Shown piece by piece: positions 9,007 to 57,724 of a stretch of 64,000 nucleotides of DNA (its first letter is position 1; every line of letters begins with the position of its first letter). Position numbers and translations under genes: made by a program. Origin of the DNA: Nipponacmea schrenckii. Lineage: Eukaryota > Mollusca > Gastropoda > Lottiidae. The notes beneath the pieces are model-generated. The model searched no databases. It was given only the letters and a program-made list of their open reading frames with translations, and had not been told where the DNA came from. The stretch is taken from contig JAUJPP010000006.1 of assembly GCA_030562195.1 (NCBI GenBank), positions 868,001 through 932,000 on the forward strand, read 5' to 3'.

Positions 9007-9637
9007 TGTTGATACACTGTAAGGATTTCAGTAGTGTTCATTCGATGTTACAGTGAACCTCCTCCAAACCGCATCCTCTATAATTGAAAAGTCCTCGCCA
9101 AATCACATATAAAAAGCGGTTAATCAGAACCACCTATCGCAACCGCAATCCGGCATCAAAATCAAGTCCCAAAGTAGTTAATCAATGGTTAATCCGTTTC
9201 GCTTAAGCGACATCTGTTTTCGTTTAGGTAACAGATTAATTGAGGTTAATCCATTACGTTTCGATGTTACATGTACAAGTATTACTGAAACTTTTTTTTA
9301 AAGTCAACAGAAGCACTGACCCCAAACCTGAGCCACGATAAATCTTATGATATCAATTTGTTATAAGTGTAGATTTTTACATTGAAACATGACAATGTAT
9401 ACCATATTTATAACAAAATTGTTCGTAAACTTTTGGGTGAAACATAGCCATATTTGAAAAGTATATTCATCTCTAAACACATTTTTATAAAATCAAAATA
9501 CACCACCTGTCGTTATAATTAAGCAGCAATACTTTTGAATAATATACGCGGTTAAAAAGTAACAATATATACGTGTTAGCCTTCCAATTATCCAATATAT
9601 ATATGAATAAATGAAAATAAGGAAACCCATCTTTAAA
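9007..9637. other. 3' flank of TRIM copy 2
   Basis: From about 9560 to the stop it matches the other TRIM 3' flanks (CGTGTTAGCC, CCAATTATCC, AAGGAAACCCATCTTTAAAT). From 9007 to 9560 it is unrelated to them and lacks the AATAAA-bearing segment the others share, so this copy has exchanged its distal 3' flank. No gene seen. Confidence 0.5.
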
Positions 9638-11804: not shown

Positions 11805-12613
11805 TGCAACATCACACAATATCACTATAGTAAATTTAACTGACTAGTAGTACCTTGGTCACTATAATACAATATCACTATAGTAAATTTAACTGACTAG
11901 TAGTACCTTAGTCACTATAACACAATATCACTATAGTAAATTTAACTGACTAGTAGTATCTTGGTCACTATAACACAATATCACTATAGTAAATTTAACT
12001 GACTAGTAGTACCTTGGTCACTATAACACAATATCACTATAGTAAATTTAACTGACTAGTAGTACCTTGGTCACTATAACATAATATCACTATAGTAAAT
12101 TTAACTGACTAGTAGTACCTTGGTCACTATAACACAATATCACTATAGTAAATTTAACTCACTAGTAGTACCTTGGTCACTATAATATAATATCACTATA
12201 GTAAATTTAACTGACTAGTAGTACCTTGGCCACTATAATATAATATCACTATAGTAAATTTAACTGACTAGTAGTACCTTGGTCACTATAATATAATATC
12301 ACTATAGTAAATTTAACTGACTAGTAGTACCTTGGTCACTATAACACAATATCACTATAGTAAATTTAACTCACTAGTAGTACCTTGGTCACTATAATAT
12401 AATATCACTATAGTAAATTTAACTGACTAGTAGTACCTTGGTCACTATAACATAATATCACTATAGTAAATTTAACTGACTAGTAGTACCTTGGTCACTA
12501 TAACATAATATCACTATAGTAAATTTAACTGACTAGTAGTACCTTGGTCACTATAATACAATATCACTATAGTAAATTTAACTGACTAGTAGTACCTTGG
12601 TCACTATAATATA
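11805..12613. repeat. 53-bp satellite, about 15 units
   Basis: Unit: AATATCACTATAGTAAATTT, AACTGACTAGTAGTACCTTG, GTCACTATAAC, with the TA-rich end varying (ATAATA, AACACA, AACATA). Very homogeneous. A single diverged unit stands at 18678-18730 in the homologous flank of TRIM copy 3, which looks like the unamplified ancestral state. It begins about 440 bp upstream of the TRIM copy 2 ATG. Confidence 0.95.
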
Positions 12614-14865: not shown

Positions 14866-15838
14866 TATTCAATTCTGATGTGTGAACAGTTAATAATGGA
14901 GTGTACAGGTCATCGTATGGTTGAGGTAAAGTATATGTTTCTTAAATATTTATTTACTGTAACCAGCTCGTCATATCTTTGCTCGGTACGGAGTCATGCT
15001 ATACTTAATAAAGGCCACCAAAGACAATTAAAAGCGATATCAAATCATCTTCATGTGATTACAAGAGCTCTGATTGGCTGTATTTTCTGGTGTTCAATCC
15101 AATCAAATCACTGTATACCATGATACATGAAAGGTAGCTAAACATTGTAAAATAAAGTAGCTCTTGTTGTTTGGTTTAATTTGGTCCATGTGTATATAAA
15201 GGGAAATAACTATATTTATTAGCATCCAGACAACAGATAAACTTTTACATAATACTTTATAATAGGATATAAACATTCAGCTCTCTACACTTGATCTATA
15301 TAAATATTACGATTTCAATAACAAGATCTGCAGTCAGTCCTTATAGTTACGTCTATTGGTCTATCTTTTTTGATGAAATACTCCTACATTTACAATTTGT
15401 AATTGTAGAAATATCCGAAACCATTGTGTTTTCCATTCAACCGGTATCTGTCAATCAAGTACACCATCCCGCCCCTAACAATATACACCTAATGTTGATA
15501 ATTAAATATTTTAGTGTTTATTGTGTAATAACTGTATCGGGATCTTATGAAGAAAAACCATGGGTATTCTACAAAGGGTACTGACTACTGAGCTTGCCCT
15601 ATGGTTGAGTTTGTAAGGATATCCATTTCCTTATCCCCCCAAATTACTTTTTCGACTTCACATTGTCTCTGTATCCAATAAAAATCAAAAACACCCACAA
15701 AATAAACGAGGTAGACTCAAGAAAGAGTTAGATTTGATTCCAGTTAAAATTTATTATTCATTCTTTATAACTGGTGAATACCAAATTACAATCTGTTTTC
15801 TATCGGAACTAATTCATTGATCAGAATTAAATCAACAA
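14866..15838 (+). repeat. Module head and leader, complete copy
   Basis: Most complete head: GATGTGTGAACAGTTAATAA, GGTCATCGTATGGTTGAGG, GAGCTCTGATTGGCTGTATT, then the TATA-like TGTGTATATAAAGGG at 15189-15203 and a 97-codon open frame at 15291-15584, then the leader to the satellite. Parts recur at 21491, 27201, 42640, 54190 and 61070. Confidence 0.75.
15291..15584 (+). CDS. 97-codon open frame in module head (doubtful)
   Basis: Starts MIYINITISITRSAVSPYSY and ends KPWVFYKGY. Equivalent frames are open at 28021-28314 and 44157-44450, open but lacking the first codons at 61269-61496, and broken at 8035-8220. No domain is recognised. Differences between copies are largely amino-acid changing (for example LHLQFV/QHFQFI, HHPAP/QNPAP), as expected for drift in young duplicates rather than selection. 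A TATA-like box lies about 100 bp upstream. I include it because the frame survives in several copies, but non-coding is more likely. Confidence 0.2.
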   Translation: MIYINITISITRSAVSPYSYVYWSIFFDEILLHLQFVIVEISETIVFSIQPVSVNQVHHPAPNNIHLMLIIKYFSVYCVITVSGSYEEKPWVFYKGY

Positions 15839-16112
15839 TAAAAATATCTACCACCAATTAAAATTAACATAACAATTACAAATATCTAAATGTGGTTATT
15901 ATTAAAGTGATTATATATATTATACCAAGTTAACAGAATTAACATAATAACAAAAATATCTACCACCAATTAAAATTAACATAACAATTACAAATATCTA
16001 AATATGGTTATTATTAAAGTGATTATATATATTATACCAAGTTAACAGAATTAACACAATAACAAAAATATCTACCACCAATTAAAATTAACATAACAAT
16101 TACAAATATCTA
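15839..16112. repeat. 112-bp satellite, about 2.4 monomers
   Basis: Same monomer as elsewhere, cut off within ACAAATATCTAA and followed by ATGACTGCTTACCGATCAAG, a right border shared with 62010. Confidence 0.9.
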
Positions 16113-16725
16113 ATGACTGCTTACCGATCAAGAGCGAAATGAATGTGGACTTTATTTAACGTGAAGTTATTTGAATTAACTGTTCTGTTTTAATATAAGG
16201 AGCTACAACTATTTCACAGGAGATATAGAAAGTTAAAACTGATTTCAATTAATTTATTATATTATAAAAAAGGAAATTCAAATATATTCATTTCCTGTAG
16301 CTGGAGATAATAAATGATAAACCAAAAAACTCGAGTAACTGTTGAATATAATTAAAAGTTTTAAAAAATCATAAATATATGTCCATCTCTATACGGACTG
16401 GATAAACGAAAATCAAAATAATAATGGACTAATGGAAAATTTGTCGGCCCTCCCTTGGACTGGATACTCGAAAATGAAAACTGCACTAATGGAAATTCGT
16501 CTGCATTCCCGTGGTAATTAGCTATAAATTGGGGACTCGTGAGACAAACTTTCAATTATTTTACAATATAATTATATATACGTGTTAGCCGTCCAATTAT
16601 CCAATATATATATCAATAAATGAAAATAAGGAAACCCATCTTTAAATCATAGTTCAATAAACAAAAATAATAAAATAGGTAAACAACATGAACAATAAAT
16701 AGAATAAAATTATAATTTAACTTAT
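16113..16725 (-). other. 3' flank of TRIM copy 3
   Basis: Shared with 31937-32628, 46815-47429 and 62011-62630. A minus-strand AATAAA at 16253-16258, about 470 bp beyond the stop, is a candidate polyadenylation signal, also conserved in the TRIM copy 4 flank (32157-32162). No coding potential. Confidence 0.5.
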
Positions 16726-18279
16726 CTACCATTTGTCCTTTACCTCTTTTATTAAAATTCTGATAGAAAATTGTCCATCTTTGTCCACAAAACCATTGTC
16801 GATATTTTGTAATTCTTTGAGATCAATAAAACTGTGATAACCATACCCTTTACCTGCCTCAAACTCATAAGTGTTTAGAGGTTCCGATTTAGATTCTCCG
16901 GCGACTTTATTTAGAAGAGTAAAACTATATTCTACTTTTACTTTCTTATTGTCACCTTTCTTATTATATCTTGTCTCTTGGTACTTAGATAAACTCAGAT
17001 AAACACCTATAGTTTCAATATATATTTTTTTACGGCATACCGACACACACCACTCACTTTCACCAAAATTAAAATATCTCTCTTGATATACATCAACCAT
17101 ACAAGAAATATTATTTACGTTAAAGTCCAGTGTAAAATTTTGTTGTTTTAAATTTTTACGTTCACCAACCAATTTCTCTAGTTCATCTCTCACGTCACTT
17201 CTAGGAAGAAAACCCGGGAGTTGTAAATCAGGAACGACCAAATCTTTCTGTTTAACTTTCATTTCATCATTTCTATTTCTCTCATTTCTTTCTACAATTT
17301 TAACAACCGACTCTCCTTCTAGGGTAATCAGAGAATCTTTAATGGTAGATTTTAGTTCAGTGATGGAAATTTCCATTTCTTTTCTTAATATTTCCAACTT
17401 TTCTCTTTCTTCATCTCTAGTATTGTTGATTTGAGTTTTAATTTGTTCAGCTCGAGATTGGACCAATTTAGAAATGAGCTGGACTTGTTGATCCACCTTG
17501 TTACACGCCTCATCACAACAATTATCAATCTCACTCAGTTTAGATGTCAGGTGATCTGAAAATGTCTGTAAACGATCGATCTGATCCTGTAAATTAGTAT
17601 TTAAACATTTTAAATCATCTCGTAGCTTGGTTTGGGTATCTTTATTGTCTAAATTCAATATCCGGTGTCCATTGTGAACACCTCTATTACTCTCATCAAC
17701 ATAACATTGTAAACAAACACAGGTTATACATTCCACACAATGTATTTCAATCGGTTTAGATGTATGAACAGGACACAGGTCTACAGGGTTCTGGTTACCT
17801 TGGTTACTGGGTTCCAATATGTCGTCTTCTTCTATTCCTTCAACAAAATCAATGATCACGTGATTTTTTGTGACAGAAATCTTGCTGTGAATTTTCTTAC
17901 AACCTTCACAAATATTTTGCTTACAATTTTTACATCGATGTTTTACACTAGTTTGACTTTCACATACGTCACAAAGAACAGCTGGAGGGGTTGCTACGTC
18001 ATTTCTATTAGACACGTCATCAGTTTCTCTACTAGTATCTACTACGTCACCACTACCACTGACGTCATCACCTTCAGAATAATCCTGGAATTCCTCGACT
18101 CCACCAGAAGGAAGTTGAATTTGTACACGACAGAGAGGACACGGAAATTGTCCGTCTTGGAGAGATTTGTTGACGTAATCATGTAAACATTGACAACAAT
18201 AAACATGTAAACATGTCAATATTTTAGGTTGTTTACGATCATGTAAACAAATACTACAAGTTCTATCTAGTTTTTCCAT
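16726..18279 (-). CDS. TRIM-MATH E3 ligase-like protein, copy 3
   Basis: Intact 517-residue single exon. RING 8-50 as in copy 2. Its B-box1 is the most divergent of the set: after VLCDVC the stretch reads ESQTSVKHRCKNCKQNICEG. B-box2 carries the ESNRG insertion between its last cysteine and the histidine pair. Coiled coil about 215-340, then the MATH-like domain ending in KEVKDKW. Only one QETRY unit is present where copies 2 and 4 have seven and eight, so the MATH loop is shortest here among intact genes. Expected role as for the family: homodimeric RING ubiquitin ligase, target unknown. The IRF-like site is intact at -115. Confidence 0.9.
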   Translation of the reverse strand: MEKLDRTCSICLHDRKQPKILTCLHVYCCQCLHDYVNKSLQDGQFPCPLCRVQIQLPSGGVEEFQDYSEGDDVSGSGDVVDTSRETDDVSNRNDVATPPAVLCDVCESQTSVKHRCKNCKQNICEGCKKIHSKISVTKNHVIIDFVEGIEEDDILEPSNQGNQNPVDLCPVHTSKPIEIHCVECITCVCLQCYVDESNRGVHNGHRILNLDNKDTQTKLRDDLKCLNTNLQDQIDRLQTFSDHLTSKLSEIDNCCDEACNKVDQQVQLISKLVQSRAEQIKTQINNTRDEEREKLEILRKEMEISITELKSTIKDSLITLEGESVVKIVERNERNRNDEMKVKQKDLVVPDLQLPGFLPRSDVRDELEKLVGERKNLKQQNFTLDFNVNNISCMVDVYQERYFNFGESEWCVSVCRKKIYIETIGVYLSLSKYQETRYNKKGDNKKVKVEYSFTLLNKVAGESKSEPLNTYEFEAGKGYGYHSFIDLKELQNIDNGFVDKDGQFSIRILIKEVKDKW

Positions 18280-23647: not shown

Positions 23648-26600
23648 ATGGATCTATTCGTCTCTGCAGGATTTACCTCGAACATCATTATTTTCTCCTT
23701 AATTGTACTTCAGCTAATTTTACTTTGTGTTGATGTTCATCCAAACCCAGGCCAAACGAAGTTTAAAACTTTACATCTCAATATCAGGAGTCTTCGGTTT
23801 AAGCTTAACCAGATATCCACTGAACTGCTTGAAAACGATATCTTGTGCTTTACTGAAACTTGGTTAGATGACTCGGTATTAACAGATTCTATTTTGCTCA
23901 CAGGTTATCAAGATCCCTGTTTATTGAACAGAACTTGTGGTAGAGGGGGTGGTATAGCTGTCTATTTATAATAGAAGATATGATCTTGAAATTCCTTCAT
24001 TGGACGCTCTTTGGATTGAGCTTTTTATAGACAACAAAAAGTTTTTACTAGGTACATTTTATCGCCCCCCCCCCCCCGAATAGCCTATAGGATTACTATA
24101 ATCTTATCGAAATAGCATCCTTCAGGCAAACGACCAACCTGATTTTAACCTTATTGTACTTGGAGACTTCAACTTAGACTTTTTGACTAAAACTAACACG
24201 AAATTGCATGACATTCTAACTAGATTTAATTTAACTCAACTGGTTACTGAACCTACCAGATTAACACTTGATAAGAACTCACTCCTTGATTTAGCCATTG
24301 TATCATGTCCAGCTTTTGTCCATTCTACAGATGTTTTTTTCTCGGGTCTGAGTGATCACAATCCTGTCCTTCTTACCTTACACTTTCCAAATACAAAAAT
24401 AGACCAATGTTTTCAGAGACAAATTTGGGATTATAAAAATTTTAGTAGCGAGGAACTGAACAATAAAATATTAGAGTATGATTGGAATGAAATTTTTAAG
24501 AACAATAATGATATTGACCAAATTACTCTTCAGATTACAAATACATTGAGTAAAATTATTTCAACTACTATACAAAGCAAAACCGTTACAATAAGACCAC
24601 GTGACTATCCCTGGATGAATGGTTATATTAGGAGATTGATAAGGCGTAGAAATAGAATTCACAAAAATGCTAAAATTAAGAATCGCGAATGTGATTGGAT
24701 AGAATTTAGGAAATATAGAAACTACGTGACTAGTGAGATAAGAAAAACGAAAAAAAACGTATTATGAGAATTTGGATACCAAAATTAATACTTCATTCCA
24801 TGACCGTGATTGGTGGAAACTAATTCGTACCTTTTCAATAAAACAAGATAGTTTGTCATCATCATTGCCCCCTTAATACATGATACACAAATCGCCTACT
24901 CTAATGTAGAAAAAGCCGAACTGCTTAATGACTACTTAATCAAACAAACATTGTCAACTAACGGACTTGAATTACCTCCTATTTTACCAATTTTAAACAA
25001 TTCAATAATCGAACCAATAGTTTTAACCTACCAGGAACTTGTTGATATCTTAGCATCATTGAAAAACAAAAAGACTTCAGGCCCGGATAGGATCAACAAC
25101 TTTATTTTGCGTATAATCTCCAAATCATTTGCCCACCCACTTTTAAAACTTTTCAATATATTAATAGCTAAATGCGTATTTCCTTCTCAATGGAAAGTTG
25201 CGAATGTTACACCGATCTTTAAATCAGGTGAGAAAAACCTCTGTAAAAACTATCGTCCAATCTCATTATTATCATCTCTTGGGAAAGTATTTGAAATAGT
25301 TCTTTATAGACATCTTAATAATTTCCTTATTAAAAATAATATTTTATATAGATATCAGTCTGGATTTCGCCAACATGATTGTGCCATGTACCAATAAACT
25401 GACATGTATGATTACATTTCATCTTCTTTAGATAAAGGACATAAGGTAAAGGCAATATTTTTTGACATTAAACGTGCCTTTGACAGGGTTTGGCATTTGG
25501 GTCTATTAGAAAAACTAAAAAGTGTAGGAATTCAAAATGAAGTACTCGATTTGTTAAAAAATTATTTAAGTGATAGAAAACAAGCTGTTCACACTTCAAA
25601 GTATAGATCAATATATTCTGGTGTACCCCATGGGTCAGTTCTTGGTCCCCTCTTGTTTTTGATTTTTATAAATGATATATCATTAAATGTATGTTCAAAT
25701 CTTAGACTCGTTGCTGATGATACCTCTCTCTTTTTAGTTCTTGATAACCCAGATACCAATCTTCAACTACTTAACAATGATCTTGCCCAAATTTACTCTT
25801 GGTCCGAAAAATGGAAAGTAGAATTTAACCCACTAAAAACAGAAAAACAGAAAACAAAAACTTTTAGTCGTAAAAACAACCCTTCTCAACTTCTTCCTAT
25901 TTTTAACAATACTCAACTTCATGACACTCATAATCATAAACATTTGGGTGTATTTCTTCAAAATAATTGTAAATGGGAAGTACATATTGACTTTATGATC
26001 AACAAAACCGCCAAAATGATAAATATCCTTAAAAGTCTCAAATATCGCCTCTCTCGTAAATCTCTGTCTATTCTTTAAAGTTCTTATATTTTATCTATAT
26101 TTGATTATTCTGTTATTGTTTGGGACAATGTTTCTGACTATTTATCGAAACGACTTGAAGATCTCCATCTTGATGCCCTTCGAATTATTACTGGTCTTCC
26201 TAGAGATACATCTCACGAAATTCTTTATAAGGAAACCGGTTATTCATCCCTTTGTGTTCGTAGGCAATTCCATAAACTAACAACATTTTACAAAATGAAA
26301 CACAACTTAGCTCCGTCCTATCTCTGTTCCCTGGTTCCTAACACATTATCACCCTCTTACTCATTTAGAAACCCTAACCGTATTAGACAAGTACGATGTA
26401 AAACCTCCCTTTACAACTCCTCTTTCCTCCCATCTACTATTAAACTCTGGAATGATTTAGATAACGTTATCAAATTACAACCTTCTCTATCCAAATTCAA
26501 ATTATCTCTCAAAAGAAGCTTATTCCCACCTAACAATAAACTATTTAACTATGGCGAACGTAAACTACAAATTATTCTGTGTAAATTACGCAATAACAAA

Positions 26601-27905: not shown

Positions 27906-28560
27906 TTAATTTGGTCTATGTGTATATAAAGGGAAATAACTATATTTATTAGCCTCCAGACAACAGATAAACTTTTAAATAATACTTTATAATAGGATCT
28001 AAACATTCAGCTTTCTACTCTTGATCTATAGAAATATTACGATTTTAATAACAAGATCTGCAGTCAGTCCTTATAGTTACATCTATTGGTCTATCTTTTT
28101 TGGTGAAATACTCCAACATTTTCAATTTATAATTGTAGAAATATCCGAAACCATTCTGTTTTACTTTCAACCGGTATCTGTCAATCAAGTACAGAACCCC
28201 GCCCCTAACAATATACACCTAATGTTGATAATTAAATATTTTAGTGTTTATTGTGTAATAACTGTATCGGGATCTTATGAAGAAAAACCATGGGTATTCT
28301 ACAAAGGGTACTGACTACTGAGCTTGCCCTATGGTTGAGTTTGTAAGGATATCCATTTCCTTATCCCCCCAAATTACTTTTTCGACTTCACATTGTCTCT
28401 GTATCCAATAAAAATCAAACACACCCACAAAATAAACGAGGTAGACTCAAGCAAGAGATAGATTTGATTCGAGTTAAAATTTATTATTTATTCTTTATAA
28501 CTGGTGAATATCAAATTACAATCTGTTTTCTATCGGAACTAATTCATTGATCAGAATTAC
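27906..28560 (+). repeat. Second module head and leader of TRIM module 4
   Basis: Repeats TTTGGTCTATGTGTATATAAAGGG onward. The 97-codon frame is open at 28021-28314 and the leader ends at GATCAGAATTA. The head is therefore partly duplicated in this module around the LINE fragment; module 5 has the same junction (44045). Confidence 0.75.
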
Positions 28561-30403
28561 ATCAACAATAAAAATATCTACCACCAATTAAAATTAACAT
28601 AACAATTACAAATATCTAAATGTGGTTATTATTAAAGTGATTATATATATTATACCAAGTTAACAGAATTAACAAAATAACAAAAAAATCTACCATCAAT
28701 TAAAATTAACATAACAATTACAAATATCTAAATGTGGTTATTATTAAAGTGATTATATATATTACACCAAGTTAACAGAATTAACATAATAACAAAAATA
28801 TCTACCATCAATTAAAATTAACATAACAATTACAAATATCTAAATGTGGTTAATATTAAAGTGATTATATATATTACACCAAGTTAACAGAATTAACATA
28901 ATAACACAAATATCTACCACCAATTAAAATTAACATAACAATTACAAATATCTAAATGTGGTTATTATTAAAGTGATTATATATATTACACCAAGTTAAC
29001 AGAATTAACATAATAACAAAAATATCTACCACCAATTAAAATTAACATAACAATTACAAATATCTAAATGTGGTTATTATTAAAGTGATTATATATATTA
29101 CACCAAGTTAACAGAATTAACATAATAACAAAAATATCTACCATCAATTAAAATTAACATAACAATTACAAATATCTAAATGTGGTTATTATTAAAGTGA
29201 TTATATATATTACACCAAGTTAACAGAATTAACATAATAACAAAAATATCTACCACCAATTAAAATTAACATAACAATTACAAATATCTAAATGTGGTTA
29301 TTATTAAAGTGATTATATATATTACACCAAATTAACAGAATTAACATAATAATAAAAATATCTACAACCAATTAAAATTAACATAACAATTACAAATGTC
29401 TAAATGTGGTCATTATTAAAGTGATTATATATTATACCAAGTTAACATAATTAACATAATAATAAAAATATCTACCACCAATTAAAATTAACATAACAAT
29501 TACAAATATCTAAATGTGGTCATTATTAAAGTGATTATATATTATACCAAGTTAACAGAATTAACATAATAATAAAAATATCTACCACCAATCAAAATTA
29601 ACATAACAATTACAAATATCTAAATGTGGTTATTATTAAAGTGATTATATATATTACACCAAGTTAACAGAATTAACATAATAACACAAATATCTACCAC
29701 CAATTAAAATTAACATAACAATTACAAATATCTAAATGTGGTTATTATTAAAGTGATTTTATATATTATACCAAGTTAACAGAATTAACACAATAATAAC
29801 AAAAATATCTACCACCAATTAAAATTAACATAACAATTACAAATATCTAAATATGGTTATTATTAAAGTGATTATATATATTACACCAAGTTAACAGAAT
29901 TAACATAATAACAAAAATATCTACCACCAATTAAAATTAACATAACAATTACAAATATCTAAATGTGGTTATTATTAAAGTGAATATATATATTATACCA
30001 AGTTAACAGAATTAACATAATAACAAAAATATCTACCACCAATTAAAATTAACATAACAATTACAAATATCTAAATGTGGTTATTATTAAAGTGATTATA
30101 TATATTATACCAAGTTAACAGAATTAACACAATAATAACAAAAATATCTACCACCAATTAAAATTAACATAACAATTACAAATATCTAAATGTGGTTATT
30201 ATTAAAGTGATTATATATATTATACCAAGTTAACAGAATAAAAATAATAACAAAAATATCTTCCACCAATTAAAATTAACATAACAATTACAAATATCTA
30301 AATGTGGTTATCATTAAAGTGATTATATATTATACCAAGTTAACAGAATTAACATAATAACAAAAATATCTACCACCAATTAAAATTAACATAACAATTA
30401 CAA
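28561..30403. repeat. 112-bp satellite, about 16 monomers (largest array)
   Basis: Period measured from successive CTAAATGTGG positions (28733, 28845, 28957). Variants include TATACC/TACACC, ACCATC/ACCACC and a 2-bp shorter unit (TATATTATACC). The array continues at 31825-31936 beyond an insertion. Confidence 0.95.
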
Positions 30404-31782: not shown

Positions 31783-31824
31783 CAAACCGAAAACAAACTG
31801 GGACTTTGCGGTAGCAAAGTCCCA
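30404..31824. mobile_element. Unclassified 1.42-kb element with hairpin terminus and A39 tract
   Basis: Inserted in a satellite monomer: left junction ATTACAA|CTAGAGCC, right junction AAGTCCCA|CAAATATC, with a possible 3-4 bp (C)ACAA duplication. The left part has TGGGACTTTGC at 30428. The right end is a perfect 11-bp stem, TGGGACTTTGC-GGTA-GCAAAGTCCCA, preceded by 39 A residues (31742-31780). CTAGAGCCACT recurs at 31573. No transposase or reverse transcriptase seen; short ORFs inside are not family-like. The hairpin end recalls Helitron-like elements but the CTRR end is absent. Confidence 0.7.
30905..30989. promoter_or_regulatory. Cluster of eight AGGTCA nuclear-receptor half-sites
   Basis: AGGTCA at 30905, 30912, 30937, 30962, 30978, 30984 and TGACCT at 30944 and 30951. 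They form DR1 (30905-30917), IR1 (30937-30949), reverse DR1 (30944-30956) and DR0 containing TCAAGGTCA (30978-30989). The arrangements are seen; binding is inferred from known receptor preferences. Confidence 0.45.
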
Positions 31825-31936
31825 CAAATATCTAAATATGGTTAATATTAAAGTGTTTATATATATTACACCAAGTTAACAGAATTAACATAATAACAAA
31901 AATATCTACCACCAATTAAAATTAACATAACAATGT
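31825..31936. repeat. 112-bp satellite, last monomer
   Basis: Continuation of the array after the insertion, ending ACATAACAATG before the TRIM 3' flank. Confidence 0.85.
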
Positions 31937-32628
31937 AAACATGTCAAAAATTTAAGGCGGTTTATTTTACAGTAAAATCAAGCCAACTATTTGATTATTG
32001 ATGTTTATACTGAATTATCCATGTATTCTTAATCACACGAACTGAATGTGGACTATATTTAACGTGAAGTTATTTGAATTAACTGTTCTGTTTTAATATA
32101 AGGAGCTACAACTATTTCACAGGAGATATAGAAAGTTAAAACTGATTTCAATTAATTTATTATATTATAAAAAAGGAAATTTAAATATATTCCTTTCCTG
32201 TAGCTGGAGATAATAAATGATAAACCAAAAAACTCGAGTAACTGTTGAATATAATTAAAAGTTTTAAACAATCATAAATATATGTCCATCTCTATACGGA
32301 CTGGATAAACGAAAATCAAAATAATAATGGACTAATGAAAAATTTGTCGGCCCTCCCTTGGACTGGATACTCGAAAATGAAAAATGCACTAATGAAAATT
32401 CGTCTGCATTCCCTTGGTAATTAGCTATAAATTAGGGACTCGTGAGACAAACTTTTAATTATTTTACAATATAATTATATATATGTGTTAGCCGTCCAAT
32501 TATCCAATATATATATCAATAAATGAAAATAAGGAAACCCATCTTTAAATCATAGTTCAATAAACAAAAATAATAAAATAGGTAAACAACATGAACAATA
32601 AATAGAATAAAATTATAATTTAACTTAT
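31937..32628 (-). other. 3' flank of TRIM copy 4
   Basis: Like 46815-47429. Minus AATAAA at 32157-32162 is a candidate polyadenylation signal. No open frame of note. Confidence 0.5.
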
Positions 32629-34299
32629 CTACCATTTGTCCTTTACCTCTTTTATTAAAATTCTGATAGAAAATTGTCCATCTTTGTCCACAAAACCATT
32701 GTCGATATTTTGTAATTCTTTGAGATCAATAAAGTCATTATAACCATACCCATCACCACCTGCTTCAAACTCATAAGTAATGAGAGGTTCCGATTTAGAT
32801 TCTCCGGCGACTTTATTTAGAAGAGTAAAACTATATTCTACTTTTACTTTCTTAATGTCACCTTTCTTATTATCTCTTGTCTCTTGGTCGCTTGTCTCTT
32901 GGACGCTTGTCTCTTGGTCGCTTGTCTCTTGGTCGCGTGTCTCTTGGTCGCTTGTCTCTTGGTCGCTTGTCTCTTGGTCGCTTGTCTCTTGATCGCTTGT
33001 CTTACATAAACCAAGATAAACACCTAGAGTATCAACATCATCCTCACATTCACGGCATACCATCACATACCATTTACATTCACCAAAATTAAAATATCTA
33101 TCTTGATATTCCCCAACTTTACTAGAAATATTATTTATGTTAAATTTCAGGGTAAAATTTGGTTTATTGAAATTTTTACATTCACCAACCAATTTCTCTA
33201 GTTCATCTCTGACGTCACTTCTAGGTAGAAAACCCGGGAATTGTAAATCAGGAACGACCAAATATTTCTGGTTAACTTTCATTTCATCGTTTCTATTTCT
33301 CTCATTTCTTTCTACCATTTTAACAACCGACTCTCCTTCTAGGGTAATCAGAGAATCTTTAATGGCTGATTTTAGTTCAGTGATGGAAATTTCCATTTCT
33401 TTTCTTAAACTTTCCAACTTTTCTCTTTCTTCATCTCTAGTATTGTTGATTTGAGTTTTAATTTGTTCAGCTCGAGATCCAAGATCGAGGACAAGTTTAG
33501 AAATAAGCTGGACTTGTTGATCCACCTTGTTACACGCCTCATCACAACAAATATCAATCTCACTCAGTTTAGTTGTCAGGTGATCTGAAAATGTCTGTAA
33601 ACGATCGATCTGAGCCTGTAAATTAGTATTTAAACATTTTAAATCATCTCGTAGCTTGGTTTGGGTATCTTTATTGTCTAAATTCAATATCCGGTGTCCA
33701 TTGTGAACATCAACATAACATTGTAAACAAACACAGGTTTTACATTCCACACAATGAATTTCAATCGGTTTAGATGTATGAACAGGACACGGGTCTACAG
33801 GACTCTGGTTACCATGGTTACTGGGTTCCAATATATCTTCTTTTTTAATTCCATCCACAAAATCAATGATCACGTGATTATTAATGACAGGAATATTGCT
33901 ATGAATTTTCTTACAACCCTCACAAATATTTTGCTTACAATTAGTACATCGATGTTTAAGACTAGTTTGACTTTTACACATGTCACAGAGGCCTACGTAT
34001 ACTGCTAGTGCTGCCACCTCATTCATATTAGACACGTCACCAGTTTCTGTGTCAGTGTCTACTACGTCATCACTACCACTGACGTCATCACCTTCAGAAT
34101 AATCCTGGAATTCCTCGACTCCACCAGAAGGAAGTTGAATTTGTACACGACAGAGAGGACATGGAAATTGTCCGTCTTGGAGAGATTTGTTGACGTAATC
34201 ATGTAAACATTGACAACAATAAACATGTAAACATGTCAATATTTTAGGTTGTTTACGATCATGTAAACAAATACTACAAGTTCTATCTAGTTTTTCCAT
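32629..34299 (-). CDS. TRIM-MATH E3 ligase-like protein, copy 4
   Basis: Intact 556-residue single exon, the best reference copy. RING C8, C11, C23, H25, C28, C31, C47, C50. B-box1 C105, C108, C118, C121, C126, C129, H133, H142. B-box2 C171, H174, C183, C186, C191, C194, H199, H202 without the ESNRG insertion. Coiled coil about 205-335, with a local LDLGS replacement near 271-275 that adds three residues and shifts the heptad register. MATH-like domain from about 381 (FNFGECKW, LGVYL, VEYSFTLLN, FIDLKELQN, GFVDKDGQFSIRI) to KEVKDKW. Eight QETSD-type units lie between the LGVYL and VEYSF strands. Probable ubiquitin ligase with MATH-mediated target binding; target unknown. Confidence 0.92.
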   Translation of the reverse strand: MEKLDRTCSICLHDRKQPKILTCLHVYCCQCLHDYVNKSLQDGQFPCPLCRVQIQLPSGGVEEFQDYSEGDDVSGSDDVVDTDTETGDVSNMNEVAALAVYVGLCDMCKSQTSLKHRCTNCKQNICEGCKKIHSNIPVINNHVIIDFVDGIKKEDILEPSNHGNQSPVDPCPVHTSKPIEIHCVECKTCVCLQCYVDVHNGHRILNLDNKDTQTKLRDDLKCLNTNLQAQIDRLQTFSDHLTTKLSEIDICCDEACNKVDQQVQLISKLVLDLGSRAEQIKTQINNTRDEEREKLESLRKEMEISITELKSAIKDSLITLEGESVVKMVERNERNRNDEMKVNQKYLVVPDLQFPGFLPRSDVRDELEKLVGECKNFNKPNFTLKFNINNISSKVGEYQDRYFNFGECKWYVMVCRECEDDVDTLGVYLGLCKTSDQETSDQETSDQETSDQETRDQETSDQETSVQETSDQETRDNKKGDIKKVKVEYSFTLLNKVAGESKSEPLITYEFEAGGDGYGYNDFIDLKELQNIDNGFVDKDGQFSIRILIKEVKDKW

Positions 34300-35771: not shown

Positions 35772-37250
35772 CAAATGGAGGTGTCTGATGCAGTAATTTG
35801 TGTGAACTCTACAAAATGGTGATGTCTGATGCAGTATGTTGTGTGAACTCTACAAAATGGTGATGTCTGATGCAGTATGTTGTGTGAACTCTACAAAATG
35901 GTGATGTCTGATGCAGTATGTTGTGTGAACTCTACAAAATAGTGATGTCTGATGCAGTATGTTGTGTGAACTCTACAAAATGGTGATGTCTGATACAGTA
36001 TGTTGTGTGAACTCTACAAAATGGTGATGTCTGATGTAGTATGTTGTGTGAACTCTACAAAATGGTGATGTCTGATACAGTATGTTGTGTGAACTCTACA
36101 AAATGGTGATGTCTGATGCAGTATGTTGTGTGAACTCTACAAAATGGTGATGTCTGATGCAGTATGTTGTGTGAACTCTACAAAATGGTGATGTCTGATG
36201 TAGTATGTTGTGTGAACCCTACAAAATGGAAATGTCTGATACAGTATGTTGTGTGAACTCTACAAAGTGGGAATGTCTGATGCAGTATGTTGTGTGAACT
36301 CTACAAAATGGTGATGTCTGATGCAGTATGTTGTGTGATCTCTACAAAATGGTGATGTCTGATGCAGTATGTTGTGTGAACTCTACAAAATGGTGATGTC
36401 TGATGCAGTATGTTGTGTGAACTCTACAAAATGGTGATGTCTGATGTAGTATGTTGTGTGAACCCTACAAAATGGAAATGTCTGATACAGTATGTTGTGT
36501 GAACTCTACAAAATGGAAATGTCTGATGCAGTATGTTGTGTGAACTCTACAAAATGGTGATGTCTGATGTAGTATGTTGTATGAACTCTACAAAATGGTG
36601 ATGTCTGATACAGTATGTTGTGTGAACTCTACAAAATGGTGATGTCTGATGCAGTATGTTGTGTGAACTCTACAAAATGGTGATGTCTGATGTAGTATGT
36701 TGTGTGAACTCTACAAAATGGTGATGTCTGATACAGTATGTTGTGTGAACTCTACAAAATGGTGATGTCTGATGCAGTATGTTGTGTGAACTCTACAAAA
36801 TGGTGATGTCTGATGCAGTATGTTGTGTGAACTCTACAAAATGGTGATGTCTGATGTAGTATGTTGTGTGAACCCTACAAAATGGAAATGTCTGATACAG
36901 TATGTTGTGTGAACTCTACAAAGTGGGAATGTCTGATGCAGTATGTTGTGTGAACTCTACAAAATGGTGATGTCTGATGCAGTATGTTGTGTGAACTCTA
37001 CAAAGTGATGATGTCTGATGCAGTATGTTCTGTGAACTCTACAAAATGGTGATGTCTGATACAGTATGTTGTGTGAACTCTACAAAATAGAAATGTCTGA
37101 TGCAGTATGTTGTGTGAACTCTACAAAATGGTGATGTCTGATGCAGTATGTTGTGTGAACTCTACAAAGTGGTGATGTCTGATGCAGTATGTTCTGTGAA
37201 CTCTACAAAATGGTGATGTCTGATACAGATTTTTTTTTCTACAAAATGGT
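35772..37250. repeat. 41-bp minisatellite, about 36 units, with higher-order repeat
   Basis: Unit: ATGGTGATGTCTGATGCAGT, ATGTTGTGTGAACTCTACAA, A. Variant units (AACCCTAC; AAAGTGGGAATG) recur at 36215/36871 and 36262/36918, that is 656 bp or 16 units apart, so a large block was duplicated as a whole. Period not a multiple of three; not coding. Confidence 0.95.
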
Positions 37251-37736: not shown

Positions 37737-39008
37737 TTAGCCTGTTAGCTTTCAACCTAGGTACTTAAGCTTTCAACCCTGGTACTTTAAGCTTTCAAAC
37801 GTGGTACTTTAAGCTTTCAACCCTGGTACTTTCAACTGTGGTGTTTTAATCTTTCAACTGTGGTACTTTAAGCTTCCAACTGTTGTACTTTCAGCTTTCA
37901 ACCGTGGTTCTTTGAGCTTCCAATTGTGATACTTTAAGCTTTAAACTGTGGTTCTTTAAGCTTTCAATTGCTTTCAATTGTGGAACTTTAATATTCAACT
38001 GTGGTACTTTAAGATTTCAACTGTGGTTCTTTAAGCTTTCAATTGCTTTCAATTGTGGAACTTTAAGCTTTCAATTGTGGTAATTTAAGCTTTGAACTGT
38101 GGTACTTTAAGCTTTCAACTGTGGTACTTTAAGCTTTCAACTGTGGTACTTTAAGCTTCCAACTGTTGTACTTTAAGCTTTCAACCGTGGTTCTTTGAGC
38201 TTCCAATTGTGATACTTTAAGCTTTCAACCGTGGTACTTTAAGCTTTCAACCGTGGTACTTTAAGCTTTCAACTGTGGTACTTTAAGCTTTCAACTGTGG
38301 TACTTTAATCTTTCAAATGTGGTACTTTAATCTTTCAACTGTGGTACTTTAAGCTTCCAACTGTGGTACTTTAAGCTTTCAATTGTGGTACTTTAATCTT
38401 TTAATTGTGATACTTTAAGCTTTGAACTGTGGTACTTAAGCTTTCAACTGTGGTACTTTAAACTTTCAACCGTTGAACTTTAAGCTTTCAACTGTGGTAC
38501 TTTAAACTTTCAACCGTTGAACTTTAAGCTGTCAACTGTGGTTCTTTGAACTTCCAACTGTGGTACTTTAAGCTTTCAATTGTGGTACCTTAAGCTTCCA
38601 ACTGTGGTACTTTAAGCTTTCAAGTGTGGTACCTTAAGCTTCCAACTGTGGTACTTTAAACTTCCAACTGTGGTACTTTAAACTTCCAACTGTGGTACTT
38701 TAAGCTTTCAACTGTGGTACTTTAAACTTCCAACAGTGGTACTTTAAACTTCCAACTGTGGTACTTTAAACTTCCAACAGTGGTACTTTAAACTTCCAAC
38801 TGTGGTACTTTAAACTTCCAACTGTGATACTTTAAGCTTTCAACCGTGTTACTTTAAGCTTTAAACTGTGGTACTTTAATCTTTCAATTGTTGTACTTTA
38901 AGCTTCCAACTTTGATACTTTAAGCTTTCAACTGTATTACTTTAAGCTTTCAACTGTGATACTTTAAGCTTCCAACTGTGGTACTTTAATCTTTCAATGG
39001 TGATACTT
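37737..39008. repeat. 22-bp minisatellite, about 57 units
   Basis: Unit GGTACTTTAAGCTTTCAACT GT, variable (AACTTCCAAC, CCGTTGAAC, single-base indels). Much more diverged than the 41-bp and 45-bp arrays, so older or less homogenised. Confidence 0.9.
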
Positions 39009-39833
39009 TTACGCCTACAATAAGCGAACAAGGACTAAAAGGTCTGAGGTATTAGGGTGGCTGAAGAAACAATATAAACCAAGGAAGAGAAGTGAAATAA
39101 GTAGCTGGTTATTCATTTTTACGAATTGGAGACTAGAGAATAGCGAATATTAATAATAATACTGTTAGGAGTTTAATCCGAGATAATTCACTATGTATTT
39201 CTTCACTTTGACTAAAGTACATTCTATTGTACATCTAGATTAACCAGTCTCGTGATAGTAGTCACGATCTTTATGTTGTCCATTATGTTGAGGGTCGTAG
39301 TTAATTATATAAATACAATATGTACTAATAATGTTGTTTTTTTATACCCAGTCTATAGTAAATATTAATCAGCAAGTTTCGATATGAATCGTTTGATAAT
39401 GATAGGTTTAAAGAATAATTTTCAATCAATTGTTTAAAAGTGATTGTAAAGAGGAATTTTTTTTTGTATTTAGGAGGAAAGGGGGGGGGGGTTAGAGGTC
39501 GATTTTTAAGATGAATTAATATAGATAATGCATAGAATGTAAAACACGTTAATGTCTTTAGCATAGTAAAGAGATAATGAATAATATAACGAAAATAGGT
39601 CGGCACATGAATGATATCATTGAAGGTTCTAAAATACCTACAATAGCCCAGTATTCGGGTTTGTAAGAACATTTCCCATCCAGTAAAAATCAACAAACAC
39701 AAAATAACAAGGTAGAATAAATTAAGAGATAGATTTGATTAGATTTCTAGATAAAGACTAGAGAACGCTGGCTGAAACGTCGCTCAAATAAAGTTAGTAA
39801 TGGTATTCCATAAGAATTGTTTATTTTAGTTAA
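39009..39833. other. Partial copy of TRIM upstream flank and intergenic
   Basis: 39190-39492 repeats 34660-35130 including ACCAGTC...GTAGTCACGATCTTTATGTTGTCC and the G run (39480-39490). No TRIM coding sequence adjoins it. The 125-codon minus frame at 39325-39702 overlaps this repeat and is not considered a gene. Confidence 0.5.
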
Positions 39834-44045: not shown

Positions 44046-44694
44046 TTTGGTCTATGTGTATATAAAGGGAAATAACTATATTTATTAGCCTCCAGACAAC
44101 AGATAAACTTTTAAATAATACTTTATAATAGGATCTAAACATTCAGCTTTCTACACTTGATCTATATAAATATTACGATTTTAATAACAAGATCTACAGT
44201 CATTCCTTATAGTTACGTATATTGGTCTATCCTTTTTGATGAAATACTCCAGCATTTACAATTTATAATTGTAGAAATATCCGAAACCATTGTGTTTTCC
44301 ATTCAACCGGTATCTGTCAATCAAGTACACTACCCCGCCCCTAACAATATACACCTAATGTTGATAATTAAATATTTTAGTGTTTATTGTGTAATAACTG
44401 TATCGGGATCTTTTGAAGAAAAACCATGGGTATTCTACAAAGGGTACTGACTACTGAGCTTGCCCTATGGTTGAGTTTGTAAGGATATCCATTTCCTTAT
44501 CCCCCCAAATTACTTTTTCGACTTCACATTGTCTCTGTATCCATTAAATATCAAACACACCCTCAAAATAAACGAGGTAGAATAAAGAAAGAGTTAGATT
44601 TGATTCGAGTTAAAATTTATTATTTATTCTTTATAACTGGTGAATATCAAATTACAATCTGTTTTCTATCGGAACTAATTCATTGATCAGAATT
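44046..44694 (+). repeat. Module head and leader (module 5)
   Basis: TATA-like TGTGTATATAAAGGG, 97-codon frame open at 44157-44450, and leader to GATCAGAATTAAC. Confidence 0.75.
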
Positions 44695-45780
44695 AACATA
44701 ATAACAAAAATATCTACCACCAATTAAAATTAACATAACAATTACAAATATCTAAATGTGGTTATTATTAAAGTGATTATATATATTATACCAAGTTAAC
44801 AGAATTAACATAATAACAAAAATATCTACCACCAATTAAAATTAACATAACAATTACAAATATCTAAATGTGGTTATTATTAAAGTGATTATATATATTA
44901 TACCAAGTTAACAGAATTAACATAATAACAAAAATATCTACCACCAATTAAAATTAACATAACAATTACAAATATCTAAATATGGTTATTATTAAAGTGA
45001 TTATATATATTACACCAAGTTAACAGAATAAACATAATAACAAAAATATCTACCACCAATTAAAATTAACATAACAATTACAAATATCTAAATGTGGTTA
45101 TTATTAAAGTGATTATATATATTATACCAAGTTAACAGAATTAACATAATAACAAAAATATCTACCACCAATTAAAATTAACATAACAATTACAAATATC
45201 TAAATGTGGTTATTATTAAAGTGATTATATATATTACACCAAGTTAACAGAATTAACATAATAACAAAAATATCTACCACCAATTAAAATTAACATAACA
45301 ATTACAAATATCTAAATGTGGTTATTATTAAAGTGATTATATATATTATACCAAGTTAACAGAATTAACATAATAACAAAAATATCTACCATCAATTAAA
45401 ATCAACATAACAATTACAAATATCTAAATGTGGTTATTATTAAAGTGATTATATATATTACACCAAGTTAACAGAATTAACATAATAACAAAAATATCTA
45501 CCACCAATTAAAATGAACACAACAATTACAAATATCTAAATGTGGTTATTATTAAAGTGATTATATATATTATACCAAGTTAACAGAATTAACATAATAA
45601 CAAAAATATCTACCATCAATTAAAATCAACATAACAATTACAAATATCTAAATGTGGTTATTATTAAAGTGATTATATATATTACACCAAGTTAACAGAA
45701 TTAACATAATAACAAAAATATCTACCACCAATTAAAATTAACATAACAATTACAAATATCTAAATGTGGTTATGATTAAA
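44695..45780. repeat. 112-bp satellite, about 10 monomers
   Basis: Ends abruptly inside a monomer (GGTTATGATTAAAGT) fused to TRIM coding sequence at 45781. Confidence 0.95.
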
Positions 45781-46026
45781 GTATCTACTACGTCATCACA
45801 ACCACTGACGTCATCACCTTCAGAAAAAATCCCGGAGTTCTTCGACTCCACCAGAAGGAAGTTGAATTTGTACACGACAAAGAGGACACGGAAATTGTCC
45901 GTCTTGGAGAGATTTGTTGACGTAATCATGTAAACATTGACAACAATAAACATGTAAACATGTCAATATTTTAGGTTGTTTACGATCATGTAAACAAATA
46001 CTACAAGTTCTATCTAGTTTTTCCAT
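45781..46026 (-). pseudogene. TRIM-MATH copy 5, RING fragment fused to satellite
   Basis: Start codon at 46026; RING 8-50 complete. One extra A in the A run near 45825-45831 shifts the frame after the RING, and the sequence ends at the satellite junction after about 80 codons. Everything from B-box1 onward is gone. Upstream, homology to the other TRIM flanks stops at 46060, so the IRF-like site is also lost and LINE sequence follows. A relic. Confidence 0.85.
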
Positions 46027-47429: not shown

Positions 47430-49045
47430 CTACCATTTGTCCTTTACCTCTTTTATTAAAATTCTGATAGAAAATTGTCCATCTTTGTCCACAAAACCAT
47501 TGTCGATATTTTGTAATTCTTTGAGATCAATAAATCTGGGATTACCATACCCTTCACCACCTTCTTCAAACTCATAAGTAACGTGAGGTTCCGATTTAGA
47601 TTCTCCGGCGACTTTATTTAGAAGAGTAAAACTATATTCTACTTTTACTTTCTTAATGTCACCTTTCTTATTACCGCTTATCTCTTGGTCGCTTGTCTCT
47701 TGGTCGCTTGTCTCTTGGTCGCTTGTCTCTTGGTTGTTTGTTTTAGATAAAAATAGATAAACACCTAGAGTATCAACATCATCCTTACATTCACGGCTTA
47801 CCATCACAAACCATTTACATTCACCAAAATTAAAATATCTATCTTGATATTCCCCAACTTTACTAGAAATATTATTTATGTTAAATTCCAGTGTAAAATT
47901 TGGTTTATTGAAATTATTACATTCACCAACCAATTTCTCTAGTTCATCTCTGACGTCACTTCTAAGAAGAAAACCCGGGAATTGTAAATCAGGAACGACC
48001 AAATCTTTCTGTTTAACTTTCATTTCATCATTTCTATTTCTCTCATTTCTTTCTACAATTTTAACAACCGACTCTCCTTCTAGGGTAATCAGAGAATCTT
48101 TAATGGCTGATTTTAGTTCAGTGATGGAAATTTCCATTTCTTTTCTAAAATTTCCAACTTTTCTCTTTCTTCATCTCTAGTATTGTTGATTTGAGTTTTA
48201 ATTTGTTCAGCTCGAGATTGGACCAATTTAGAAATGAGCTGGACTTGTTGATCCACCTTGTTACACGCCTCATCACAACACATATCAATCTCACTCAGTT
48301 TAGATGTCAGGTGATCTGAAAATTTCTGTAAACGATCGATCTGAGCCTGTAAATTAGTATTTAAACATTTTAAATCATCTCGTAGCTTGGTTTGGGTATC
48401 TTTATTATCTAAATTCAACATCCGGTGTCCATTGTGAACACCTCTATTACTCTCATCAATATAACATTGTAAACAAACACAGGTTTTACATTCCACACAA
48501 TAGATTTCAACCGGTTTAGATGTATGTACAGGACACGGTTCCACAAGACCCTGGGTACCATGGTAACTGGGTTCCAATATTTCTTCTTCTTTAATTCCAT
48601 CAACAAAATCAATGATCACGTGATTTTTAGTGACAGGAATATTGCTATGAACTTTCCTACAGGCCTCACAAATATTTTGCTTGCAATCTGTACATCGATA
48701 TTTTACACTAGTTTGACTTTTACAAAGGTCACAGAGGCCTACGTATACTGCTAGTGCTGCCACCTCATTCATATTAAACACGTCATCAGTTTCTGTGTCA
48801 GTGTCTACTACGTCATCACTACCACTGACGTCATCACCTTCAGAATAATCCTGGAATTCCTCGACTCCACCAGAAGGAATTTGAATTTGTACACGACAAA
48901 GAGGACATGGAAATTGTCCGTCTTGGAGGGATTTGTTGACGTAATCATGTAAACATTGACAACAATAAACATGTAAACATGTCAATATTTTAGGTTGTTT
49001 ACGATCATGTAAACAAATACTACAAGTTCTATCTAGTTTTTCCAT
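47430..49045 (-). pseudogene. TRIM-MATH copy 6, one-base frameshift
   Basis: RING, B-box1, B-box2 (with ESNRG insertion) and coiled coil are open from 49045 to about 48146. There, one T present in the paralogs (CTTTTCTTAAAATTTCC) is absent (CTTTTCTAAAATTTCC), and the frame stops at 48113. The rest (47430-48137) is open in the other frame and encodes the end of the coiled coil and a complete MATH-like domain with four QETSD-type units ending KEVKDKW. Because this is the only lesion and the promoter motif is intact, either a very recent pseudogene or a base-calling error is possible. If real, the product is a RING/B-box/coiled-coil protein without the MATH domain. Confidence 0.85.
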
Positions 49046-54776: not shown

Positions 54777-57724
54777 ACCTCTAAACAATATACTGGATGT
54801 AGCTTCAATACCAGCAACGTTTCCCTTAAACAATATACTGGATGTAGCTTCAATACCAGCAACGTTTCCCTTAAACAATATACTGGATGTAGCTTCAATA
54901 CCAGCAACGTTTCCCTTAAACAATATACTGGATGTAGCTTCAATACCAGCAACGTTTCCCTTAAACAATATACTGGATGTAGCTTCAATACCAGCAACGT
55001 TTCCCTTAAACAATATACTGGATGTAGCTTCAATACCAGCAACGTTTCCCTTAAACAATATACTGGATGTAGCTCCAATACCAGCAACGTTTCCCTCAAA
55101 CAATATACTGGATGTAGCTCCAATACCAGCAACGTTTCCCTTAAACAATATACTGGATGTAGCTTCAATACCAGCAACGTTTCCCTTAAACAATATACTG
55201 GATGTAGCTCCAATACCAGCAACGTTTTCCTTAAACAATATACTGGATGTAGCTTCAATACCAGCAACGTTTCCCTTAAACAATATACTGGATGTAGCTT
55301 CAATACCAGCAACGTTTCCCTTAAACAATATACTGGATGTAGCTTCAATACCAGCAACGTTTCCCTCAAACAATATACTGGATGTAGCTTCAATACCAGC
55401 AACGTTTCCCTTAAACAATATACTGGATGTAGCTTCAATACCAGCAACGTTTCCCTTAAACAATATACTGGATGTAGCTTCAATACCAGCAACGTTTCCC
55501 TTAAACAATATACTGGATGTAGCTTCAATACCAGCAACGTTTCCCTTAAACAATATACTGGATGTAGCTTCAATACCAGCAACGTTTCCCTTAAACAATA
55601 TATACTGGATGTAGCTTCAATACCAGCAACGTTTCCCTTAAACAATATATACTGGATGTAGCTTCAATACCAGCAACGTTTCCCTTAAACAATATATACT
55701 GGATGTAGCTTCAATACCAGCAACGTTTCCCTTAAACAATATATACTGGATGTAGCTTCAATACCAGCAACGTTTCCCTTAAACAATATACTGGATGTAG
55801 CTTCAATATCAGCAACGTTTCCCTTAAACAATATACTGGATGTAGCTTCAATACCAGCAACGTTTCCCTTAAACAATATACTGGATGTAGCTTCAATACC
55901 AGCAACGTTTCCCTTAAACAATATATACTGGATGTAGCTTCAATACCAGCAACGTTTCCCTTAAACAATATACTGGATGTAGCTTCAATACCAGCAACGT
56001 TTCCCTTAAACAATATACTGGATGTAGCTCCAATACCAGCAACGTTTCCCTTAAACAATATACTGGATGTAGCTCCAATACCAGCAACGTTTCCCTTAAA
56101 CAATATACTGGATGTAGCTTCAATACCAGCAACGTTTCCCTTAAACAATATACTGGATGTAGCTTCAATACCAGCAACGTTTCCCTTAAACAATATACTG
56201 GATGTAGCTTCAATACCAGCAACGTTTCCCTTAAACAATATACTGGATGTAGCTTCAATACCAGCAACGTTTCCCTTAAACAATATACTGGATGTAGCTT
56301 CAATACCAGCAACGTTTCCCTTAAACAATATACTGGATGTAGCTTCAATACCAGCAACGTTTCCCTTAAACAATATACTGGATGTAGCTTCAATACCAGC
56401 AACGTTTCCCTTAAACAATATACTGGATGTAGCTTCAATACCAGCAACGTTTCCCTTAAACAATATACTGTATGTAGCTTCAATACCAGCAACGTTTCCC
56501 TTAAACCATATACTGTATGTAGCTTCAATACCAGCAACGTTTCCCTTAAACAATATACTGGATGTAGCTTCAATACCAGCAACGTTTCCCTTAAACAATA
56601 TACTGGATGTAGCTTCAATACCAGCAACGTTTCCCTTAAACAATATACTGGATGTAGCTTCAATACCAGCAACGTTTCCCTTAAACAATATACTAGAAGT
56701 AGCTTCAATATCAGCAACGTTTCCCTTAAACAATATACTGGATGTAGCTTCAATATCAGCAACGTTTCCCTTAAACAATATACTGGATGTAGCTTCAATA
56801 TCAGCAACGTTTCCCTTAAACAATATACTGGATGTAGCTTCAATATCAGCAACGTTTCCCTTAAACAATATACTGGATGTAGCTCCAATACCAGCAACGT
56901 TTCCCTTAAACAATATACTGGATGTAGCTTCAATACCAGCAACGTATCCCTTAAACAATATACTGGATGTAGCTTCAATACCAGCAACGTTTCCCTTAAA
57001 CAATATACTGGATGTAGCTTCAATACCAGCAACGTTTCCCTTAAACAATATACTGGATGTAGCTTCAATATCAGCAACGTTTTCCTTAAACAATATACTG
57101 TATGTAGCTTCAATACCAGCAACGTTTCCCTTAAACAATATACTGGATGTAGCTTCAATACCAGCAACGTTTCCCTTAAACAATATACTGGATGTAGCTT
57201 CAATATCAGCAACGTTTCCCTTAAACAATATACTGGATGTAGCTTCAATATCAGCAACGTTTCCCTTAAACAATATACTGGATGTAGCTTCAATATCAGC
57301 AACGTTTCCCTTAAACAATATACTGGATGTAGCTTCAATATCAGCAACGTTTCCCTTAAACAATATACTGGATGTAGCTCCAATACCAGCAACGTTTCCC
57401 TTAAACAATATACTGGATGTAGCTTCAATACCAGCAACGTATCCCTTAAACAATATACTGGATGTAGCTTCAATACCAGCAACGTTTCCCTTAAACAATA
57501 TACTGGATGTAGCTTCAATACCAGCAACGTTTTCCTTAAACAATATACTGGATGTAGCTTCAATACCAGCAACGTTTCCCTTAAACAATATACTGGATGT
57601 AGCTTCAATATCAGCAACGTTTCCCTTAAACAATATACTGGATGTAGCTTCAATACCAGCAACGTTTCCCTTAAACAATATACTGGATGTAGCTTCAATA
57701 CCAGCAACGTTTTCCTTAAACAGA
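54777..57724. repeat. 45-bp minisatellite, about 65 units, open in several frames
   Basis: Unit AACAATATACTGGATGTAGC, TTCAATACCAGCAACGTTTC, CCTTA. Since 45 is a multiple of three and the unit lacks stops in two minus frames and one plus frame, long open frames exist (up to 668 codons, e.g. LFKGNVAGIEATSSI per unit on minus). I regard these as by-products, not genes: variants are not biased to synonymous sites. Five units near 55600-55760 and 55920 have an extra TA. A block of 11 units (495 bp) is duplicated (variants at 56883/57378 and 56944/57439). Confidence 0.95.

Follow-up and report, generated by a model that had tools for sequence, protein, structure and literature searches.

The window (the whole 64-kb stretch of DNA that we analyzed, 32.3% G+C) raises the question of why a 15-bp minisatellite, translated as repeats of QETSD, should lie inside the putative target-binding domain of a TRIM-type protein, and whether the changing number of its units serves the gene or is tolerated by it.

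A cluster of TRIM-type genes in a repeat-rich window

A single gene recurs along the minus strand of the window, in six longer copies and as one 5' fragment; over aligned bases, the longer copies are 93-95% identical to copy D and the fragment, E, is 91% identical. The copies and the features discussed below are as follows.

1 to 806, minus strand: copy A, truncated by the start of the window before it reaches the MATH part; a 5-bp deletion breaks the frame
9638 to 11365, minus strand: copy B, an open reading frame of 575 residues with seven QETSD units; a 2-bp deletion near the end
9962 to 10066, minus strand: QETSD array of B, seven units
16726 to 18279, minus strand: copy C, an intact open reading frame of 517 residues
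16966 to 16980, minus strand: the single QETSD unit of C
32629 to 34299, minus strand: copy D, an intact open reading frame of 556 residues with a RING, two B-boxes, a helical region and a MATH domain split by the array
32665 to 33165, minus strand: MATH domain of D, about residues 379-545 with the array included, from Pfam MATH_2 and the SPOP alignment
32872 to 32991, minus strand: QETSD array of D, eight units of 15 bp
45780 to 46026, minus strand: copy E, a 5' fragment that ends where a 112-bp satellite array (44688-45782) begins
47430 to 49045, minus strand: copy F, in which a 1-bp deletion at 48150 separates two open reading frames; a four-unit array
47673 to 47732, minus strand: QETSD array of F, four units
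62631 to 64000, minus strand: copy G, truncated by the end of the window; a frame-breaking deletion at the array site (62870)

Pfam searches found a RING, two B-box stretches and MATH_2 in the copies. The RING lies near the N-terminus (zf-C3HC4 at residues 8-50 of D, E 5.2e-7, above the cut-off), and zf-B_box was above its cut-off in two stretches in each of B, C and D. Residues 211-345 matched solely unrelated helical families, below their cut-offs. MATH_2 exceeded its curated cut-off in D (E 4e-10), F (8e-10) and C (2e-9); in B it scored 27.7 bits, under the cut-off of 32. The window thus holds a tandem cluster of near-identical, single-ORF TRIM-type genes.

Five copies in the window reach the array site, and in three of them (B, C and D, which are single open frames) the frame is open from the start codon through the array. 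Frame-breaking indels occur in three of the six longer copies: the 5-bp deletion of A, the 1-bp deletion of F, which sits upstream of its array, and the array deletion of G. Some of these indels could be assembly errors. The 2-bp deletion of B lies near the stop, so that an AT-rich stretch (9638-9723) is read as a different, hydrophobic tail, which could act as a membrane anchor.

Our case that the copies are coding is built on the Pfam matches and the selection pattern described below, not on the open frames. An argument that an open frame proves coding was considered and rejected: none of the six frames of the QETSD array contains a stop in B or D, and just one of them does in F, and a 45-bp array elsewhere in the window yields long reading frames that look mechanical. 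This 45-bp array (54782-57722, 65 units) is open in more than one frame, with reading frames of 668 and 597 residues, and is a caution against taking open frames for genes.

With a minimum period of 7 and a minimum score of 50, 19.3% of the window is tandem repeat; the six longer copies contribute 378 of their 8745 bases, and the sequence outside them 11970 of 55255. The coding QETSD array is a frame-compatible case of this common tandem repetition. A 112-bp satellite lies downstream of gene copies (8550-9007, 15822-16113, 28552-30403, 31824-31949, 44688-45782 and 61728-62021), with 1 to 16.5 units, at a distance of about 610-680 bp in the case of B, C, D and G; the duplicated gene module therefore carries a second expandable repeat. 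Long non-coding minisatellites were also seen at 35773-37228 (41-bp unit), 37747-39009 (22 bp) and 11814-12609 (53 bp), as were reverse transcriptase pieces at 24183-26078, where RVT_1 matched two adjacent reading frames (E 7.6e-4, below the cut-off, and 1.3e-17). Together with the TRIM-type proteins, these pieces give the window the appearance of animal DNA.

The QETSD array and its place in the MATH fold

The preliminary description had counted 8, 7, 4 and 1 units, and these numbers are right for D, B, F and C, respectively, on the minus strand. Tandem Repeats Finder reported the array of D at 32876-33002 with period 15, 8.5 copies and 95% matches. The longest exact period-15 runs were 39 in D, 88 in B and 39 in F, compared with maxima of 10, 12 and 11, respectively, among 500 codon shuffles of each copy; the repetition is far above chance in all three, and the QETSD array is real. 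Allowing up to two mismatches, we found no QETSD unit elsewhere in the window beyond the arrays.

B, D and F have 16 internal units between them, of which 14 are identical in DNA sequence, and both changes in the other two are nonsynonymous, none synonymous, suggesting recent slippage. The last unit of each array differs from the internal unit by 2 or 3 bases, as does the single unit of C. Because the internal unit is common to B, D and F, the array is probably older than the split of these copies or was spread among them by exchange, with the number of units changing later. The identity of the units, together with their numbers in the paralogs (7, 8, 4 and 1), points to slippage or unequal exchange as the way in which units came and went. 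Across the array region (residues 433-480), there were 13 nonsynonymous substitutions and 1 synonymous substitution, and the units show no sign of constraint.

A further copy, G, had been described as having zero units in frame, and this did not hold. At the array site, G is shorter than D by a net 130 bp, which is not a multiple of 3. The deletion takes out the array and the residues NKKG, a TGA follows immediately, and the protein ends inside the MATH domain, the second half of the domain being in another frame. The junction itself contains a few bases similar to the right flank, as might be left by error-prone end joining.

It had also been proposed that the array lies inside the MATH domain, in a surface loop, and alignment to the MATH domain of SPOP agrees with this placement by homology. 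When a four-copy alignment was compared with SPOP MATH by hhalign (probability 80%), Y428 was paired with SPOP Y87 and Y489 with SPOP F102, and the array fell between SPOP P94 and K95 (SPOP residue numbers are counted from W131). The profile alignment thus places the array in the loop predicted to join the strands that bear the equivalents of Y87 and F102. When the MATH part of C was used as a phmmer query, SPOP chains were matched with E values between 0.0021 and 0.021, and SPOP was the closest solved structure by sequence among the 21 of 22 distinct PDB sequences listed. In this search, the strand before the array was put four residues off the hhalign position, onto Y83, whereas the strand of residues 413 and 415 was aligned alike by both methods. 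SPOP itself is different in being a MATH-BTB adapter, and its loop equivalent to the array site is short.

Selection in the MATH domain

The preliminary description had regarded MATH as the likely target-binding domain, and this view gains support from strong, site-specific diversifying selection that was found in MATH and was not detected in the RING/B-box/coiled-coil part (RBCC). We applied our own implementation of codon site models to B, C, D, F and G, using 119 codons of MATH with the array removed and 340 codons of RBCC. In MATH, the log-likelihood was -923.9 under M1a and -905.4 under M2a (2dlnL 37.1, p 8.8e-9), and M2a assigned 11% of sites to a ratio of 12.7. The same comparison in the 340 codons of RBCC detected no diversifying selection (p 0.68). 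The signal was found in each half of MATH when the halves were tested separately (p 1.4e-4 and 1.5e-4), its smallest 2dlnL over all 15 topologies was 37.1, and p was 4e-6 or less after each of the five single-copy drops. None of 94 null simulations reached 37.1, and the maximum among them was 4.5.

Simpler counts were also made. Nei-Gojobori dN/dS over residues 366-432 was 1.84, 2.43 and 1.31 for the pairs BC, BD and CD, respectively, compared with 0.33-0.78 for the same pairs in the RING/B-box, coiled-coil and MATH_C regions. Minimum-step counts gave per-site ratios of nonsynonymous to synonymous changes of 1.06 for residues 379-432, 0.90 for 481-545, and 0.24-0.81 for seven upstream regions; the first of these was weakly above that of residues 1-378 (Fisher p 0.04) and not above that of 481-545 (p 0.43).

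The selection result bears directly on a reading in which there is decay and nothing else: a young family is losing its genes, slippage acts on relaxed sequence, and the selection signal is an artefact of gene conversion with paralogs outside our view. Such decay would account for the frame-breaking indels of A, F and G and for the reduction of E to a fragment. It would also suit the conflict between trees, since the MATH and RBCC parts of the copies (9638-64000) have different best trees; this difference indicates that the copies are mosaic, a sign of exchange between them, and an M2a signal can be raised artificially by exchange with paralogs outside our view or by multi-base mutations. However, RBCC is held to a dN/dS of 0.42, which fits better than a ratio of 1 (log-likelihood -2106.9 vs. 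-2115.6), and the selection signal in MATH persists when F and G are left out and the three intact copies B, C and D stand alone (p 2.4e-6). Moreover, the signal is absent from RBCC, where exchange was equally possible. We consider decay by itself unlikely.

On the best tree, the sites with a posterior above 0.8 were 400, 413, 415, 430, 432, 506, 507, 516, 521 and 522, and on the second-best tree the selected sites were 400, 413, 415, 430, 506, 507 and 521; these posteriors ignore the uncertainty of the parameters. Sites 413 and 415 alternate with the invariant V412 and V414 and align with SPOP R70 and N72 by both phmmer and hhalign. We take R70 and N72 to be the equivalents of TRAF2 R393 and Y395. 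In the accessible part of PMC6125299, these two TRAF2 residues contact the Glu of the ligand. Sites 516 and 521 align by hhalign with SPOP K129 and K134, which are among the mutated MATH residues listed in an excerpt of PMC9690554. Immediately ahead of the array, sites 430 and 432 come after Y428 and share its face of the strand. Four of the ten selected sites fell on groove equivalents (p 0.009) and six of the ten within one residue of them (p 0.006), as judged against a set of 12 positions that was made by hand after the sites were known. Position 490 was entered in this set in place of the correct 489; none of the selected sites is close to either position. By this alignment-based mapping, many of the selected MATH sites would lie at the equivalents of the SPOP/TRAF2 ligand groove, and MATH is probably the target-binding part of these TRIM-type proteins. 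The MATH surface beside the array appears to be changing unusually fast, in the manner of an arms race, and this is a stronger result than the array itself.

What the array may do, and its relatives

We favor the reading of an arms-race-like TRIM-MATH cluster in which a loop at the rim of the groove tolerates in-frame slippage, and we give it a probability of about 0.6. Single-ORF TRIM genes (RING, two B-boxes, helical region and MATH) would have multiplied in tandem in a genome rich in tandem repeats. The groove of MATH would bind a target, and conflict with a changing partner, presumably an opponent met in an immune role, would drive its diversification. Slippage or unequal exchange would add or remove 15-bp units with the frame kept, and the polar, acidic and probably disordered loop at the rim is where such changes of length would mainly be tolerated. 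Because the units give no sign of constraint and C is intact with one unit, length variation seems to have been tolerated first and possibly exploited. The array is thus probably a tolerated by-product of DNA slippage, and it is possible that loop length, as placed by homology, also tunes access to the groove.

A stronger form of the last idea is that loop length itself is selected, with slippage, as the preliminary description proposed, supplying rim-loop length variants that would alter which targets fit the groove. The array does begin right after the selected sites 430 and 432, the number of units is different in every copy that bears an array, and an excerpt of PMC6907815 describes lengthening of the Chlorocebus TRIM5 PRYSPRY domain by tandem duplication. 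Against these points stand the 13 to 1 ratio of substitutions in the array region, the intact state of C with its one unit, and the presence of tandem repeats everywhere in the window, and we regard selection on loop length as doubtful.

It could also be asked whether the array is a ladder of sites resembling TRAF ligands, in which each S-D-Q-E-T recruits TRAF MATH domains and slippage sets their number. Ser or Thr at P-2 of the TRAF motif is seen in older TRAF2 work. The accessible text of PMC6125299 gives the motifs as Px(Q/E)E and Px(Q/E)xT, with CD40 as an example, and S-D-Q-E-T resembles the P-V-Q-E-T of CD40; the same text has Pro at P-2, which S-D-Q-E-T lacks. The looser pattern [PSAT]xQET occurs only in the arrays (six times in B, seven in D, two in the C-terminal reading frame of F and none in C), although it fits 4 of the 24 cyclic orders of the five residues by hand count, a chance of about 1 in 6. 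At the equivalent of TRAF2 R393, the groove of the copies has M, E, S or V, and it is without the serine triad, so that binding of the array by its own MATH domain in the TRAF fashion is unlikely. The ladder appears highly improbable. Very improbable, too, is a combination in which slippage tunes a multivalent acidic rim loop on a diversifying groove, the number of units setting both access to the groove and the count of S-D-Q-E-T sites; if it were true, slippage at one 15-bp unit would be enough for an immune E3 ligase to have its choice of target and its signaling strength retuned in the space of one generation.

In protein searches for relatives, full-length D gave six matches, the best of which (P0001, a scallop TRIM) covered 10% of the query; the MATH half of D matched P0007 and P0008 alone, aligned over a QET-like low-complexity repeat; and the 178 candidates examined for the MATH part of C all had E above 0.01. 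These three protein searches found no ortholog of the cluster genes, and they found no relative of the MATH part, which counts against the arms-race reading that we favor. No relatives of C or of the MATH alignment were found in viral contigs. The QETSD pattern occurred in no viral contig and in two bacterial contigs, which we take as convergence.

Among known systems, TRIM37 and its Subfamily A (Class VIII) have one B-box in the account excerpted from PMC3503706, whereas the copies here have two B-box stretches, and no TRIM37-type relative turned up among the protein-search matches. Subfamily C of Branchiostoma, in the same excerpt, has two B-boxes and MATH like the copies here, one member having a short intronless ORF; it differs in having two MATH domains, which are close to those of MATH-UCH proteins, where the copies have one. 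The authors regard these two-B-box MATH TRIMs of Branchiostoma as a convergent case (PMC3503706, same part).

TRIM5alpha, with the v1 loop of its PRYSPRY domain, is also a TRIM ligase, one whose target-binding domain has variable loops that are positively selected and carry indels (PMC6907815, in part); it differs in its B30.2 fold and in the single duplication described there for Chlorocebus, in contrast to the MATH domain and 15-bp array of 1 to 8 units here. The finTRIMs of teleost fish have likewise been duplicated, and positive selection in them centers on the recognition domain at the C-terminus, which is a B30.2 domain; the portion of PMC2657112 available notes no minisatellite in them. 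As in these antagonist-driven TRIMs, TRIM5 and the finTRIMs, positive selection in the cluster is concentrated in the C-terminal recognition domain. Nematode MATH substrate adapters have expanded as a family, and sites of their substrate-binding domain are under positive selection; they are cullin adapters rather than RING/B-box ligases, and no repeat array is noted in the excerpt of PMC5392922. As far as the search listings show, no coding minisatellite in a MATH domain is named in the open-licence literature searched.

TRIM proteins with a B30.2/PRYSPRY domain are the textbook arms-race ligases. The cluster described here hints at a similar system in an animal lineage, built on the MATH domain of a two-B-box TRIM, in which the recognition domain alone diversifies. 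Within that domain, the in-frame minisatellite would be a mutational device able to alter rim-loop length far more quickly than point mutation does.
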